Below, piece by piece: positions 15,685 through 43,643 of a stretch of DNA of 64,000 bases (positions are counted from its first letter, which is position 1; every line of letters begins with the position of its first letter). The DNA lies in the NCBI GenBank assembly GCA_024653345.1, contig JANLFV010000001.1:210387-274386 (forward strand). The letters are read 5' to 3'. This stretch comes from Candidatus Acetothermia bacterium (GTDB lineage: Bacteria; Bipolaricaulota; Bipolaricaulia; RBG-16-55-9; JANLFV01). Position numbers and translations under genes: made by a program. The notes beneath the pieces are model-generated. The model saw only the letters and a program-made list of their open reading frames with translations, searched no databases and had not been told where the DNA came from.

Positions 15685-17219
15685 ATGGGCAAGATCGTCA
15701 TCGACCCGACCACCCGGATCGAGGGCCACCTCGCGATCGAGGCCATCGTAGAGGGCGGGGTGGTGAGGAGGCGAGGAGCTCGGGGACCCTCTTCCGCGGG
15801 CTGGAGTTGATCCTCCAGGGGCGGGACCCCCGAGATGCCCCGCTCATCACCCAGCGGATCTGCGGGGTCTGCCCGATCGCCCACGCCACGGCTTCGACCT
15901 TCGCCCTCGATCGGGCCTTCGGGGTGGAAGGGAAGATTACCAAGAACGGTCGGATCGTCCGCAACCTGATCTTGGGCTCGAACTTCATCCAGTCCCATGT
16001 CCTCCACTTCTACCACCTCGCGGCACTCGATTATGTCGATATCACCAAGGTGGCCGACTACAGCGGCAGTGATCCCGGCCTGCGAGCAGTCAAGCGATTC
16101 CTCGAGCGGGGCGAGCTCGGCCCCTTCCTCCCAAGGTATGAGGGGGACTACCGGCTCAATAAGGAGGCGAACCGCGCGGCCGCGGCCCATTACCTCCAGG
16201 CATTCGATATCCGCCGGAAGGCCCATGAGATGCTCGCGGTCTTCGGCGGGAAGGTCCCCCATACCGTGGGGATCGTCCCCGGCGGTGCCACCCAGGTCCC
16301 GACGGTCGATAAGATCACCTCGTTCCTCTGGAGGCTCAACGAGATCCGGGGCTTCATCGATAACATCTACATCCCCGATGTCCTGACGATCGCTAAGGCC
16401 TACCCCGACTACCTCGAGATCGGCTCGGGGTGCAAGAACCTCCTCTCCTACGGCGGCTTCCCTCAAGAGGATGGGCTGTTCTTCTGGAGTGGGGCCACCT
16501 CTCGGGATCTGAACCCCCAGGAGCTCGACCCCTCCAAGGTCACCGAATCGGTCCGCTACTCTTGGTATGCCTCTTCCCGAGACCCGCTCCACCCTACGGA
16601 GGGGATGACCAAGCCCCACTTTGGGAAGGAGGGGGCCTACTCCTGGATCAAGGCCCCCCGCTACGACGGGAAGGTCTACGAGGTCGGCCCGCTGGCCCGC
16701 CTCCTGGTGAACTACGCCGAGGGGCACCCCCGAGTGAAGGGGCTGGTGGACTGGGCCCTGGGTGAGCTTGAGGTAAGGCCCCAGGCTCTCTTCTCCGTGA
16801 TGGGACGCCATCTCGCCCGGGCCTTGGACTGCAAGCTGGTGGCCGATGCGATGGCCGAGTGGGTGATGGAGCTCGAGCCGGGCGGGCCGGTCTATACCGA
16901 ATATGAGCTACCGGATTCGGCCCAGGGCTTCGGGCTGGTCGAGGCCCCCCGCGGGGCCTTGGGCCACTGGCTCAAGATCGAGGGCAAAAGGATCGAGCAC
17001 TACCAGTGCGTGGTCCCGACCACTTGGAATGCCTCCCCCAGGGACGAGAAGGGCCAGCCGGGGCCGCTCGAGCAGGCCATTGAGGGGACGAAGATCCGGG
17101 ACGAGCGGAACCCCTTCGAGATCGTGAGGATCGTCCGGTCGTTCGACCCCTGCCTCGCCTGTGCCGTCCACTTAGTGGGGCCGAGGGGGCAGGCGCTCGC
17201 CCGCCTCGAGGTGAGCTAG
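15685..17219 (+). CDS. [NiFe]-hydrogenase large subunit, with a one-base frameshift near the start
   Basis: Catalytic subunit for H2 oxidation or production, about 511 residues when repaired. From ATG 15685 it reads MGKIVIDPTTRIEGHLAIEA, then loses frame near 15764-15772. It resumes as EARSSGTLFRGLELILQGRD in the other frame, one base being absent. Both nickel motifs are intact: RICGVCPIAHA near the N terminus and DPCLACAVH at the C terminus. A short tail after the histidine is the peptide removed by the maturation protease encoded next. Sequence features are those of group 1 uptake hydrogenases, but no twin-arginine signal or cytochrome b gene is present. It follows the small subunit with no gap. 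Confidence 0.85.
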
Positions 17220-19566: not shown

Positions 19567-20479
19567 AGGCCGGGAGCAACCTGGAGAAGATCCTCGAGAG
19601 CGGCCAGTTCGCCGTCACCTGCGAGCTCGGCCCACCGCGGGGGACGAGCCGGAGGGCGATCGAGAGTAAGGGCGAGCTCCTCCGGGACTACTGCGATGCC
19701 ATCAATGTCACCGACAACCAGACGGCGATCGTCCGGATGGGGAGCCTCCCCTCACGTGTGATCCTCCGGGAGATGGGGCTCGAGCCGGTCTGGCAGATCA
19801 CGGTCCGCGACCGGACCGGCTGGCGATCCAGAGCGATGTCCTGGGGGCCGTGGCCCTGGGTGTAAAGAACATACTCTGCCTCTCGGGGGACCATCCCCGG
19901 CTGGGGGACCACCCCCAGGCCAAGGGTGTCTGGGACTTAGACTCGATCCAGCTCATCCAGACTTTGAAGCAGATGCGGGACGAGCGGAGGCTCCTCTCGG
20001 GGAACGAGATCCGCGGGGAGGTCCCCATCTTCATCGGCGCGGCCGCGAACCCCTTCGCCGACCCCTTCGAGTTCCGTGTGGTCCGCTTGGCCAAGAAGGT
20101 TAAGGCCGGGGCCGACTTCATCCAGACCCAGGCGGTCTTCGACCTCCCCAGGTTCAAGCGGTTCATGGAGCTGGTCCGGGACCAGGGGCTGGACGAGCAG
20201 GTCCACATCCTCTCGGGGGTCATCCCGCCCAAATCGGCGGGGATGGCTCGCTAGATGCGGGACTATGTGGCCGGGGTCCGTGTCCCGGATGAGGTGGTCC
20301 GGCGGATGGAGGACGCCCGTGACGCCAAGGAGGAGGGGCTCGCGATCTCACTGGAGATCATCGCGCAGATCCTCGAGATCCCCGGGGTCCACGGGGTCCA
20401 TATCATGGCCGTCGGCTGGGAGGAGGCCGTCCCGGAGATCGTCTCCCGGGCCAAGCTCCTCCCCAGGCCGATCATCTAA
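19563..20479 (+). pseudogene. metF: Methylene-THF reductase MetF, copy 1, interrupted twice
   Basis: Short MetF of acetogens, about 305 residues when read through; reduces methylene-THF to methyl-THF together with MetV. Frame 1 gives VTCELGPPRGTSRRAIESKG to TVRDRTG. One base is missing near 19815, after which frame 2 gives LAIQSDVLGAVALGVKNILC. The second lesion is an in-frame TAG at 20252-20254: GMAR, stop, MRDYVAGVRVP. Copy 2 (22034) reads GMARFMNKNVAGVHVP at the same place, so the stop replaces an aromatic residue. It ends with a TAA 10 bases before the next gene and overlaps the kinase as ATGA. It is either a decaying duplicate or misread sequence. Confidence 0.85.
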
Positions 20480-30545: not shown

Positions 30546-30723
30546 TTACTCCAGGATCCTTAAGGTATCGTCCTTCTCCCGCCACTCGAACCGCTTGACC
30601 CCCTCGAGCCTAAGCTCGCCCTCGAAGAGCCTCTTCAAGATGAGCTTACCGTCCTCGTAGCGGAACTCGATCACCCCCTCGGCCAGCTTCTCCTCGCCCC
30701 CTCTTGACGGTGATCTCGCACAT
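30546..30723 (-). CDS. cooT: CooT-like nickel chaperone, with a one-base frame disruption
   Basis: 58 residues when repaired: it starts MCEITVKRGEEKLAEGV and ends DDTLRILE before TAA 30548-30546. The Met-Cys start followed by a small beta-rich domain (IEFRYEDGKLILKRLFEGEL) is typical of CooT, which binds nickel through Cys2 and helps mature CO dehydrogenase. The minus-strand G run (30701-30697) has five G where four keep the frame; the total length of 178 bases fits one extra base. It is the last gene of the CODH/ACS operon, 32 bases after the 67-residue gene and behind a GGAGGGAGCG ribosome site, which supports both the identity and a sequence error. Confidence 0.75.
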
Positions 30724-33668: not shown

Positions 33669-34645
33669 CGGCCCTCACCTCCCCGCTCGCCCATGAGCTG
33701 CCGGATCACCGCTTTCGTCGCCCGGACCGCCTCGGGATGGCGCATGATCAGGATGTCGGCCCCCGCGAGGAGGTAGACATAGGCGGTCGTGGCCTCCCAA
33801 AGGGGCCCGCGCTTCTTGGGGTCGCCCCATTCGGGGACCTCGGCCTTCGCCTCCTTCACCCCCCAGACCTCGATCCCGATGTCGCAGAGGATCGGCATGG
33901 CCATCACCTTGTCCCCTTTCAAGCCGGCGATCCGGGTCCGCTCCATGATCGAATAGATGTATTCCAGGCCGTAGCCTAAGGCCCCGGTTGAGGGGAAGAT
34001 CACGATGTCCTCGAGCCTGAAGCCGGCGTCGAGCGCGAGGATGTTCACCTGCTTGGCGATGTTGATGTCCACGGGCGACTCGGCGATCAGCTTGTGCTTG
34101 TAGGCAGTGCAGAGGGCCGTGAGGGTCTTGTAATTGTCCTCGGTGATCGTCCCGAGGAGACAGTTCTCGCCCGCCACGGCCTCGGCCACCAAAGGGAAGA
34201 CCTCGTTATCCTTCTCGTCGTTCCCACAGCCCCAGATGATCAGCGGGACCCCGACCGACTCGAGAACCCGTCTGGCCGCCTGGGCTGCTTCCTTGGGGGA
34301 CTTATTCGCCCCGTTGGGGTCGCAGCCCTTCAGCCGGAGGCAGATGAGCTCGGCCCCATACTCCTCGACGCATTTTCGGGCCCACTCGCCGGGGTCGTGC
34401 ATCACCTCGGCGAACGGCTCCTTCACGGCCTCGGGCCACTCCTCCCCGGGGATGTCCCAGACCTCCATCGCCACCACCGGGGGATGGGGGATCGCCCCCT
34501 CGAAGTGATAGAACGGGAGAGTCGTCTCGCCCCCAACGGTGACGGTCGAGGTCCGGGTCCCGCCCTCTTCTTTTGTGGCCCCGATCTTGACGGTGTTGAT
34601 CGGGTTCGGCCAGCTCTGCTTCACCTCGGGGATCTTTACCTCCAT
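33665..34645 (-). CDS. acsD: Corrinoid iron-sulfur protein, small subunit
   Basis: CoFeSP small (delta) subunit, 326 residues. It pairs with AcsC to carry the methyl group from AcsE to acetyl-CoA synthase. TIM-barrel type sequence with LICLRLKGCDPNGANKSPKE, LIIWGCGNDEKD and GYGLEYIYSIMERTRI. The start overlaps the end of cooC by ten bases. Confidence 0.96.
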   Translation of the reverse strand: MEVKIPEVKQSWPNPINTVKIGATKEEGGTRTSTVTVGGETTLPFYHFEGAIPHPPVVAMEVWDIPGEEWPEAVKEPFAEVMHDPGEWARKCVEEYGAELICLRLKGCDPNGANKSPKEAAQAARRVLESVGVPLIIWGCGNDEKDNEVFPLVAEAVAGENCLLGTITEDNYKTLTALCTAYKHKLIAESPVDINIAKQVNILALDAGFRLEDIVIFPSTGALGYGLEYIYSIMERTRIAGLKGDKVMAMPILCDIGIEVWGVKEAKAEVPEWGDPKKRGPLWEATTAYVYLLAGADILIMRHPEAVRATKAVIRQLMGERGGEGR

Positions 34646-35436
34646 CTCTGCTCAACCTCCTTGGGGGTCGATCGTTCCTCTCGAGTCAGGGCTTCCAGCG
34701 ACCGGGCCAGCCCTCGCTTCGCCGGCGAGCCCGCCGAAAGGTTGCTCAGAGGCCGGCCCGCGAGCGCTAGCCTCAGGACCTCCTCGTCGTGGGGGACCAC
34801 CCCGAGGAGGGGTAGGCCGGTCTGGGCCAACTCCGCCTCTAAGGCCGGTGGGAGCTCGCCGGCCAGATCGTTCACCAACAGATACCGCCCCTTGATCCGC
34901 AGCTTGAGCGCGGCGGCCAGCTCGCTGATCCGCCTCGCCGAGCGGATCGAGATCGGGTCGGCCCGGGCCACGACGATTAAAGCATCGACATCCTGGGTGG
35001 TCCGGCGGGAGAGGTGCTCCATCCCCGCCTCGTTATCGATCACCACATACTTATAATTCCCGCGGAGCACATCGATGTATTTCCGCAGGATGTGGTTGAC
35101 CATGCAGTAGCACTTCGGCCCCTCGCCGTGGCCCATCACCAGGAGGTCCACGCCCTCGTCCTCGACTAGGCACTCCTGGAGCCCGAGCTCGAGATACTGC
35201 TCCTTGGGGAGGCCGGCGGGGAGGTCGGCGATCCGCTCGAGGGTCTCCTCGCGGAGCTCGCCGACGGTCCTGGCGACCTCGAGCCCCAGGAGCTCATGCA
35301 GGTTCACATTGGGGTCGGCATCGACCGCCAGGATCGGGCCCGCGCCCCTCTCCCGGAGGAGCTCGATCAGGAGGGCGGCGATCGTGGTCTTCCCCGTCCC
35401 GCCCTTGCCCGCTACAGCGATCGTGAATGGCATCAA
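34636..35436 (-). CDS. cooC: CooC/AcsF nickel-insertion ATPase, copy 1
   Basis: MinD-type ATPase thought to load nickel into CODH/ACS. 266 residues. Deviant Walker A GKGGTGKTT at 10-18, and the nickel-binding CxC at 109-111 within GPKCYCMVN. VVIDNEAGMEHLSR is the family's Walker B region. It lies inside the CODH/ACS operon between the corrinoid activator and acsD, five bases after the former. A second copy is at 42861. Confidence 0.94.
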   Translation of the reverse strand: MMPFTIAVAGKGGTGKTTIAALLIELLRERGAGPILAVDADPNVNLHELLGLEVARTVGELREETLERIADLPAGLPKEQYLELGLQECLVEDEGVDLLVMGHGEGPKCYCMVNHILRKYIDVLRGNYKYVVIDNEAGMEHLSRRTTQDVDALIVVARADPISIRSARRISELAAALKLRIKGRYLLVNDLAGELPPALEAELAQTGLPLLGVVPHDEEVLRLALAGRPLSNLSAGSPAKRGLARSLEALTREERSTPKEVEQRWR

Positions 35437-38739: not shown

Positions 38740-40959
38740 CTAGATGATCGGCTCCATCTCCAGGGCCGGATGGCCCACCTTCCGGAGGAACTCCAGGAGC
38801 TCCTCGGTGGTCGTGGCCTCCTCTTCAGTGGCGATCTTATCGATCAAGTCCGGCTCACCGATCTCCTGGAGCCTCTTCTCGAGCCGCTCCCGGATCTCCT
38901 CCTTCAGTTCCTTCGGCATCCAGACGACCCTCCTGATCCCCCCTCAGCGGAGATGAACTTCTCGCTGGTGATGTAGAGCTTCCCGATCCCCAAAAAGCCG
39001 GGGGTCTGGACCCCGCCGCCGATCTCGCCGGCCATGGTGGAGAAGGTCATCCCGATCGGGGTCATCCCCATGTATTCCCGGTTTACGAGCATCACCCCGT
39101 TCGTCTCGGGCAAGACCGCGGCGATCACCTCGAAGCAGCCGCAGCTCGTTTGAGGGTCGGTCATGATGGAATACATGCTCACGCGCTCGAGGTTCCCGTT
39201 AGAGGCCTGGGCGACATACTCATTGACCCCGGCGAAGATCCCGTGGACCGGGTCGAGGACCTCGCCCTTCTTCACCGGCTTGTTCGGGCCGTGGGGGTCC
39301 ATCTCGTAGCTCGCGCCGCAGTCGAGCCAGGTGTAGGCCCCGCAGAGGCCCAACCGCTGGGGGGTGACGATGCAGACATGGTTCGGGGCATAGGACTGGC
39401 AGAGGATGCAAGAATAGAATGTATCGACACTTTCGTCCTTGAGCCCCATGACTCGCTCGTCCCGCTGGCGGTAGATCTTCCGCGCCTCCTCGATCAGCCG
39501 GTCGACTTGGGCCTGGTCGGTGACGATCTTGACCTGGACCTTATCGACGATCGCCCCGAAGTCCTCCTTGAACTTGGCGACGAGGACCTCGCCGTAGTGC
39601 CGCAAGCGAAAGCCCTTCTGATAGGCCTCCTTGCTGATCCTCACCCAGGGGATGTCCCGCTGGCCGATGTGCATCACCCCGTTGATGCAACTGATGAAGT
39701 GGTGGATCCGCCGCTCGAGCACCGGCTCGAAGTCCACCTTCAGGTTCCGCCCGGCCACATCGACGATCAAGCCCAGGGGCATCGCCTCGCCCTCCTTGGC
39801 CTGGTCGATGTCCGGTCCGATCAGCTCGATCTTGCCGTCCTCGACCTCCTCCATCGGCCGGGCCCGCAGGAGCTCGAAGGCCGTGGAATATTTCCCGCCG
39901 AACTCGACATAGAGGTTCTCCTTCCGGACCCGCTCGCCCTCGAAGCCCGCACCATAAGGGACGGGGATGGGGATCTTAGTGATCTTGAGCTTGAGGCCCC
40001 GGACCTCCACGGCCTTGGTCACGATCTTGTCCAATGGGACCCCGGAGACGACATGCTCGTAGGTGCAGATCCCCCTGGGAAGGATCTGGGGGATGTTCAC
40101 ATCCGAGATAACGGGGAAGCCGAAGTTGATCGCCCCCGCGGCGGTAGCATACTTCTCATCGGTGAGGAGCTGGCCGCCGTCCGCGTGGGGATCGTGGTCC
40201 GCGTCGAGGGCCAGGACGAAGGCATGGACCCTCTCTTTGTTGTAAAGCAAGATCTTCCGCGCCGCCTCCAGGTCCCCGGGCTTGACCCCACCGAAGGTCA
40301 TCGCCGCCCTCGCGGCGAAATTGAGGGCATGGACCGCGGCTGAAGTATCTTTCCCGTAGGGGACAAGGAAGGTGTCCCAATTCATCTCCACGCCCTCTTC
40401 ATGCAACTGCTCGGCCATCGAGCGGCCGTTGGTGTTCGAGGCCATGAAGACGAGGATGTTCCTCTCCTGGAGGGAGCGGGCCAGCTCGACCGCCTCCTTA
40501 ATTCGTCGGCAAGGCCCCGACGCAGGCGGCGAACCCCGGCATCCGGCCGTCGACGAGCTTGATCCCCTGCGTTCTGAGAATGGAATCGTCGGTGAACCCG
40601 AGCCAGGGCTCCTTCGGCTCCTCTCCCCTCAAGTATTTGAGGGCCTCGATGATCTCCTCCGCGATCAGGGTGGCGATCCCCGCGTCCAGGGCGTTCCCAA
40701 GATAAGGGAGCCAGAGCCGCTCCTCCGGGACCGGCGGGAGGAGGGATTTAGCCCAGTCGAGGGCCTTCTGGGCGTCGGCCAGGGTCTTGACCTCCAGCCC
40801 GGTGAGGGCGAGGATCAAGGGCAAGTAGTAGGCCGTATTGGGGAAGCCGATCCCCTTCTCCGGCCCGAAGGCCTCGACCGCCTGGCGGAGCCCCTCCTCC
40901 GCCTGGGCCACATACTTGTGCGCGCCGCGGATGGCCGCACTGGCGATGATCCTCGACAT
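38740..40959 (-). CDS. acsB: Acetyl-CoA synthase, interrupted by two compensating frameshifts
   Basis: Forms acetyl-CoA from CO, methyl-CoFeSP and CoA. Read through, it is about 739 residues, as in Moorella. Piece 1 (40959-40501) encodes the N-terminal CODH-contact domain (AEEGLRQAVEAFGPEKGIGF). A TAA at 40500-40498 interrupts it, and the sequence resumes in another frame as KEAVELARSLQERNILVF. Piece 2 carries every A-cluster ligand (SCILCQSYAPNHVC, GLCG, SCGCFE). The second break is in a six-G run at 38943-38938; with one G added it reads AEGGIRRVVWMPKELKEEI and ends at TAG 38740. The total length is divisible by three, so the breaks cancel. Sequence errors are likely for at least the second. 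Confidence 0.88.
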
Positions 40960-40971
40960 CTTTCAACCTCC

Positions 40972-42273
40972 TTAACTCACGAGCCTCATCGTCTCGATCA
41001 ATTCCTGGTATTCCCGCTCGGGGAACCGCTCGCTCCGGCCCTCGATGAGCGGCAGGACCTCCGAGAAGCCGAACGACTCCCGGAGGAGCTGGTCCTTGAG
41101 CCCGGCGACGCTCACGCCCTTCGCCACGAGCGAGCGGATGAGCCCGGCATTCTCGATCTCCCCGACCAGGATGAACCCCACCACCCGGTCGCCGCGGAGG
41201 ACCAGCCGCTTATAGACCCGCGGCGCGGGCTGGACGATCAGCTCCTCATCGAAGTCCCGCTCGCGCAGGCCCGCCAGCCCGGCGGAGATGACCGGGAGGT
41301 CGAAGAGCTGGACGGAGTTCATCCCGATCGAGCCCCGGTAGACCGCCTCCTTCGCCGCCATGTTCAGCCCCGCGACCCGCCCCTGCTCCACGGCGCAAGG
41401 CCAGAGGGCGTTGGTCCAGTGCTCCCCACGGACCACATCGTAGCTCTGGGCCACATCCCCCGCGGCATAGATGTTCGGGATGTTCGTCCGGCAGTGCTCG
41501 TCGATGATGATCCCGTAATCATACCGGACCTCGGTCCCCTCGACCGGCTCGAGGTTGGCCCGGACTCCCTTCCCGACGACGACAAGCTGGCAGGGGAGCT
41601 CCTCGCCTGATCTCATGAGCACGCCCGTGACCTGGCTGTCGCCCAGGATCTTCGCCGGCTCCATCCCGGTGGCGACCTTGATCCCGTGGGCCTCCAGAAG
41701 CTCTCCGTAGATCTCGCTCGCCCGGGCGTCGATCATCTGGGAGAGGAGGTGGGGCGAGCCGACGGCCACGGTCACCTCGACCCCGCGGGCCCGAAGGCCG
41801 ACGGCTGCCTTCAGGCCCACCAGGCCCCCGCCGAGGACGACTGCCTCCTTCACCTCGGGGAGGAGCCTTAGCATCTCCTTCGCGTCCTTAAGCGTCCGGA
41901 AGCCGAAGACGCCCCTCTTCTCGAGCCCCTCGATCTCGGGGAAGACCGGCACGGCCCCGGTGGCGAGGAGCAGATTGTCGTATTCCAGTTCCTCGCCGTT
42001 ATCGAGGATCACCCGGTTGGCCCGGGGCTCGACCCGGACGGCCCTCCTCCCGAGGCGGGCCTCGATCCGGTTCCGCTCGTAGAAGTCGGGCGGGCGATAG
42101 TAAATCCTCTCCTCGGGGAGCTCGCCCGCGAGGTAGTAAGAGATGAGGGGACGGGAATATAAGGGGTTGGGCTCATCAGAGATCATGACGATCTCGCAGG
42201 TGGGATCGGCCCGGCGGAGGGCCTCAGCGGCGCTGATCCCGGCCGCGCTGCTCCCGATGATGATGTTCTTCAA
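40972..42273 (-). CDS. FAD/NAD(P)-dependent oxidoreductase paired with CooF
   Basis: 433 residues of the pyridine-nucleotide-disulfide oxidoreductase fold, close to NADH oxidase/nitrite-reductase-like FNOR proteins. FAD motif IIIGSSAAGISAAEALRR, NAD motif AVVLGGGLVGLKAAVGL, and IPNIYAAGDVAQSYDVV are clear. No redox CxxxxC pair is present. In several CO-metabolising anaerobes the set CooS-CooF-FNOR moves electrons between CO and NAD(P)/ferredoxin. The order here (cooF, this gene, acsB) supports the same role. It overlaps cooF by four bases. Confidence 0.88.
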   Translation of the reverse strand: MKNIIIGSSAAGISAAEALRRADPTCEIVMISDEPNPLYSRPLISYYLAGELPEERIYYRPPDFYERNRIEARLGRRAVRVEPRANRVILDNGEELEYDNLLLATGAVPVFPEIEGLEKRGVFGFRTLKDAKEMLRLLPEVKEAVVLGGGLVGLKAAVGLRARGVEVTVAVGSPHLLSQMIDARASEIYGELLEAHGIKVATGMEPAKILGDSQVTGVLMRSGEELPCQLVVVGKGVRANLEPVEGTEVRYDYGIIIDEHCRTNIPNIYAAGDVAQSYDVVRGEHWTNALWPCAVEQGRVAGLNMAAKEAVYRGSIGMNSVQLFDLPVISAGLAGLRERDFDEELIVQPAPRVYKRLVLRGDRVVGFILVGEIENAGLIRSLVAKGVSVAGLKDQLLRESFGFSEVLPLIEGRSERFPEREYQELIETMRLVS

Positions 42274-42860: not shown

Positions 42861-43643
42861 TCAGCGGGCCGAAGGCCGCCTCTCAGCTCCCGAGATCGCC
42901 TCCGTCAGGGAGGTGAAGATCGCCCCAATCTCGTGGCGGAGGAGGCCATCGGGCTCAAGCTGGGGGAGCCCGCCCGGGCTGAGGATGCGCAGTTGCTCGC
43001 TATAGCTGAGGGAGCCGAGGAGGGGGAGATCCGGGGGCAGGCCCCGCTCGATCGCCTCCCGCTCAAGGGGCTCACGGACCCTGTTCCCCACGGCCAGGAC
43101 ATGGCGGAGGCCGATCTCCCGGGCGAGCTTTGAGATCCTCGCGGCGGTCTGGAGGCTCCTCGGATCGGGGTCGACCACCACGATGAGGCCGTCGACCCCC
43201 TGGGCTGTCCCCCGCCCGAGGTGCTCGATCCCGGCCTCCATGTCGACGATCACCAGCTCATCCCGCTCGAGAAAGAGGTGCCGCAGCAGGCCGCGGAGGA
43301 AGCTGTTCTCGGGGCAGGCGCAGCCGCCACCGCCCTTCCGGATCGCCCCGAGGACCATCACCCTGATCCCGTCCTTGTAGACGGAGTAGCGGTCGGGTAT
43401 GTCCTCCACCCTGGGATTGAGCTTGATGAGCCCCGCGGCTTCCCCCACCCGCTCCTTGATCAACTCCTGCAGCTCGGCCAGGGGGGTGATCTCCGCCTCG
43501 ATCCCTAGAGTAGCGGCTAGATTGGCGGCGGGGTCGGCGTCGACCGCCAGGACCCGGTAGCCGCGGGAGACGGCCTCCCGCGCCAGGAGGGCCACCAGGG
43601 TCGTCTTCCCCACCCCGCCCTTACCCGAGATCGCCAGCTTCAT
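42861..43643 (-). CDS. cooC: CooC nickel-insertion ATPase, copy 2
   Basis: 260 residues. Walker A GKGGVGKTT at 7-15, nickel CxC at 108-110 (GGCACPENSF) and VIVDMEAGIEHLGRG. It differs clearly from the copy at 34636 (different start, longer middle segment RVEDIPDRYSVYKDG), so the two may serve CODH and ACS separately; this is inference. It overlaps the DUF3786 gene by four bases and lies just upstream of the cooF promoter. Confidence 0.93.
   Translation of the reverse strand: MKLAISGKGGVGKTTLVALLAREAVSRGYRVLAVDADPAANLAATLGIEAEITPLAELQELIKERVGEAAGLIKLNPRVEDIPDRYSVYKDGIRVMVLGAIRKGGGGCACPENSFLRGLLRHLFLERDELVIVDMEAGIEHLGRGTAQGVDGLIVVVDPDPRSLQTAARISKLAREIGLRHVLAVGNRVREPLEREAIERGLPPDLPLLGSLSYSEQLRILSPGGLPQLEPDGLLRHEIGAIFTSLTEAISGAERRPSAR

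Follow-up and report, generated by a model that had tools for sequence, protein, structure and literature searches.

The gene coding for acetyl-CoA synthase, acsB, lies on the minus strand (38740-40959) of a 64,000-nucleotide stretch of a Candidatus Acetothermia bacterium draft assembly (contig JANLFV010000001.1; hereafter the window), where it is spread over three reading frames. The question raised by this locus is whether the gene is broken in the organism or in the assembly. The first frame ends in ...GALPTN followed by a stop codon, the second starts at TAAG|GAGGCGGTC (EAVELARSLQ...) and extends to a run of six G, and the third opens with GGIRRVVWMPKELKE... after that run and reaches its stop at 38740-38742 (Table 1). 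Two frameshifts that cancel each other had been described in an earlier note at these two places, and this description holds: the +1 shift at break 1 and the -1 shift at break 2 sum to zero.

Summed over the three frames, the gene has the same domains, domain order and cysteine motifs as the bacterial acetyl-CoA synthase AcsB (NF040764, PRK09529; Moorella 1oao/1mjg, further chain 1ru3). The N-terminal CODH-contact (PF18537), CdhC (PF03598) and ACS C-terminal (PF19436) domains are all present, the latter two being matched by piece 2 with E=3.6e-68 and E=8.8e-93, respectively. The NF040764 model (705 positions) is matched in two pieces, 1-140 and 146-641, and the last 67 residues match those of relatives in the third frame. 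Piece 2 contains the A-cluster cysteine motifs SCILCQ, NHVC and TSCGC at positions 360, 370 and 448. The neighbours acsC, acsV, acsD, acsE and acsA are also those found with bacterial AcsB. Unlike known bacterial AcsB, which is read in one continuous frame, the gene in the window is broken twice, and in this assembly only. A single CdhC match was found in the host genome (1.71 Mb, 31 contigs, 92% complete); an explanation by two gene copies was rejected, as no further copy could stand in for this one. Open frames were seen in every other cluster gene that was checked (CODH, AcsE, AcsD, CooC-like, AcsV and AcsC). The same CODH/ACS cluster carries two separate MinD/CooC-like ATPase genes (34636-35436 and 42861-43643, minus strand) and, beside them, an FAD oxidoreductase (40972-42273).

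Table 1. Coordinates of the acsB pieces, of the frame breaks and of related features in the window and in other loci
Feature	Position	Strand	Details
acsB piece 1	40498..40959	-	153 residues; N-terminal half of CODH-contact (A1) domain; PF18537 E=1.9e-29
acsB piece 2	38938..40497	-	Remainder of A1, CdhC domain and start of C-terminal domain
acsB piece 3	38740..38943	-	Final 67 residues and stop; 94% identity to G001 (L028)
Break 1	40498..40503	-	+1 base: AAT TAA G GAG GCG (window) vs AAT GAG GAG GCG (G001)
Break 2	38938..38943	-	G6 run, -1 base; relatives read AEGG|IRRVVW
TTAAGGAGG at break 1	40493..40501	-	On and after the break-1 stop
TTAAGGAGG, true acsB ribosome-binding site	40967..40975	-	Nine letters identical to break 1
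Nickel-dependent hydrogenase large subunit, frame break	15766..15767	+	One A short
Methylenetetrahydrofolate reductase gene (metF), frame break	19814..19815	+	One A short
Small ORF beside acsA, frame break	30700..30704	-	One G too many
Intein in acsB, in frame, directly before CGC cysteine pair	L126:100-1476	-	G001 (same genus), 459 aa
Intein in acsB, in frame, directly before CGC cysteine pair	L137:5173-6549	-	G009, 459 aa
Intein in acsB, in frame, directly before CGC cysteine pair	L046:4342-6054	+	Aerophobetes record, 571 aa
Intein at second acsB site, directly before second cysteine of SCILC	L089:1101-2705	+	Aerophobetes, 535 aa
Intein at second acsB site, directly before second cysteine of SCILC	L097:4099-5700	+	Aerophobetes, 534 aa

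Comparison with relatives was based on 110 acsB loci, drawn from a search of the genome itself, from 60 related genomes (24 of them matching) and from one contig scan, of which the best 80 loci were taken. Two of these loci are the window itself and about 10 gave no row, one end being missing; the rows are loci, and some genomes, present in both sets, are counted twice. Break 1 could be read on both sides in 99 loci and break 2 in 100. All non-window rows are in frame (97/97 at break 1 and 98/98 at break 2), and the rows out of frame are in each case the two copies of the window. The same-genus genome G001, with 86-88% identity to the window over the acsB stretches, is continuous at both breaks. 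A split of acsB shared by the lineage was rejected on these counts, and the comparison, proposed earlier for the case that break 1 was real, spoke against it. Both breaks are absent from the relatives compared. In one other draft, a Fraserbacteria record (G008, L105 / L023), acsB likewise occupies three frames, but its breaks do not coincide with those of the window; this fits draft errors scattered at random better than a device kept by selection.

The same loci revealed inteins in the acsB genes of relatives (Table 1). At the first site, before the CGC cysteines where we expect two A-cluster ligands, the inteins of G001 and G009 are 78% identical to each other, and that of the Aerophobetes record is 40-44% identical to these; at the second site the two inteins are 79% identical. 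Each insert starts with Cys and ends in Lys-Asn or Arg-Asn, followed by Cys. The whole AcsB protein of G009 has a LAGLIDADG_3 match, and its Intein_splicing match falls slightly under the cut-off (32 vs 35.8 bits). An intein at the CGC site was found in 2 of 100 genomes of the phylum (E <= 1e-20), and both sites are empty in the window. Literature searches for inteins together with acetyl-CoA synthase, carbon monoxide dehydrogenase, CODH or Bipolaricaulota showed nothing on ACS inteins among the papers listed; part of PMC6390638 deals with GyrB and DnaE inteins.

At break 1, which is not located in a long homopolymer run, TAAGGAGG corresponds to ordinary Lys/Glu-Glu-Ala coding sequence with one additional T. 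The earlier note had pointed to a stop codon fused to a strong Shine-Dalgarno-like sequence. The letters TTAAGGAGG are indeed there, with three occurrences in the window against 0.32 expected, one of them at the true ribosome-binding site of acsB. At break 1 the Shine-Dalgarno-like letters are the codons GAG GAG GCG of a conserved Glu-Ala stretch, common to G001. Termination at TAA followed by reinitiation from AGGAGG would give two polypeptides and a free CODH-contact fragment. AGGAGG does overlap the stop and an in-frame CTG is found 16 nt past the T of TAA; this CTG is the only candidate, with no ATG, GTG or TTG at Shine-Dalgarno spacing after the break and the first in-frame ATG only 55 nt past the TAA. 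Moreover, G001 has the same GGAGG letters without a stop, the window contains GGAGG 581 times when both strands are counted (278 + 303), and break 2 would still take away the last 67 residues. In 9fu4_B, a 311-residue N-terminal construct, residues 26-161 align with piece 1 and residues 188-311 with the start of piece 2, which places break 1 inside the A1 domain. The cut thus halves the CODH-contact domain in its middle; a split at the domain border was rejected, and with it the separate CODH-contact domain suggested earlier. We regard reinitiation as exceedingly improbable.

Break 2 falls in a G run that is one base short, as suspected earlier when it was likened to a homopolymer error; G001 reads GAG GGA GGG ATC at this place, on an end piece located in another contig. 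Programmed frameshifting, +1 at AAT TAA G and -1 at the G run, could in principle fuse the three frames. The run reads G GGG GGA in frame, a type that is a classical -1 slip pattern, and the two shifts cancel. A conserved device of this kind should leave traces in relatives, and none of the rows is out of frame (0/97 at break 1 and 0/98 at break 2). No stimulatory RNA structure was found in the two downstream 81-nt stretches, which are no more stably folded than shuffled sequences (z -0.36 and 0.07). At break 1, the tRNA reading AAT would be expected to mispair on ATT after a +1 slip, and the Shine-Dalgarno-like motif overlaps the stop and extends beyond it instead of preceding it. The chance that frameshifting joins the frames therefore seems minimal, and the earlier suggestion of frameshifting or reinitiation at break 1 found no support, given that no relative has the break and no start codon other than CTG stands at the right spacing. 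It is very doubtful that break 1 is real and that the enzyme works from pieces made separately or joined by frameshifting, the first half of the CODH-contact domain being a free polypeptide. Literature searches on acsB frameshifts and on frameshift errors in MAGs showed nothing on acsB among the papers listed.

Coding constraint was examined in an alignment of 28 sequences (735 columns, 286 of them near-invariant). The window acsB deviates in 1/286 near-invariant columns, like working relatives, and the other 27 rows in 0 to 4, except one divergent row with 28. With six outgroups, 16 nonsynonymous and 37 synonymous changes were assigned to the window branch and 18 and 44 to the G001 branch (25 and 52 were not assignable to either), and the window branch has no excess of amino-acid change compared with G001. 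The dN/dS values against G001 are 0.28, 0.09 and 0.12 for pieces 1, 2 and 3, the highest of which may reflect the small size of piece 1, the only explanation on offer; against L031 and L032 they are about 0.06-0.07 where computable. These values show the coding constraint to be preserved across all three frames. The earlier argument that this enzyme cannot be lost is supported in so far as acsB, with its single deviating column and its lack of amino-acid excess, is too constrained to have been dead for long.

The two breaks in acsB are not the only ones in the window. Comparison with the G001 contigs revealed five single-base differences that break the frame, distributed over four genes within about 25 kb, at all of which G001 is whole. 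Each fits a one-letter run that has gained or lost a single base (AA to A twice, G4 to G5, G7 to G6 and T to TT). The three outside acsB are uncompensated and affect the hydrogenase large subunit, metF and a small ORF (30548-30723) beside acsA, which has no Pfam family and which we liken to CooT. The automatic test flagged three in-gene breaks in the 44.3 kb of aligned coding sequence of the window (15767, 38941 and 40501) along with gene-junction switches, and no break within a gene in the 48.7 kb from four other 20-kb stretches, a count that may be too low since two of the five window breaks were added by eye. One flagged site outside the window was discarded as a gene junction. The single-base slips are locally clustered. 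Two further approaches were less telling. A frame-coding model applied to the window and to other stretches initially put forward 7 candidates in 238 kb of G000 coding sequence and 1 in 58 kb of G001. Several of these are natural overlaps or junctions, among them 17689, which is common to G001, and the gene junction C2:15185, so that the count alone gives no rate. Gene-by-gene tblastn, too coarse to detect short lost ends, flagged 2/44 G001 genes in the window (the acsB end and a poorly aligned gene start) and, in the reverse direction, 2/46 window genes in G001.

The main rival explanation is a real and very recent loss, in which true frameshifts affecting acsB along with further Wood-Ljungdahl and hydrogenase genes would mark the beginning of pathway decay. 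The strongest argument for it is position: the four affected genes all belong to the pathway cluster or its vicinity, and the 48.7 kb from elsewhere showed no comparable break. On the other hand, decay would not easily produce five indels in four genes without amino-acid excess in acsB, stop substitutions were not seen in that gene, and the other cluster genes checked are open. We consider such a loss unlikely.

The organism very probably has an ordinary bacterial acetyl-CoA synthase gene in one continuous frame, to which indel errors in a draft assembly would have added a base at break 1 and from which they would have removed one at break 2; the three other single-base spots would be assembly errors of the same kind. 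Since the single-base indels appear random, the constraint is intact and the positions are common to no relative, we infer sequence errors and not fresh mutations. Homopolymer-type draft errors are alike in being single-base changes, several per stretch, that are absent from relatives and leave constraint intact; the local clustering sets the present breaks apart. With five breaks in 44.3 kb against no in-gene break in 48.7 kb elsewhere, the errors would be local, as might be expected of a weak stretch of the assembly, for example one of low coverage. Apart from its effect on annotation, the finding is ordinary. That effect would be for acsB to be scored as missing or as a pseudogene, with metF and the hydrogenase recorded as broken, and Wood-Ljungdahl carbon fixation would thereby be wrongly denied to this organism.
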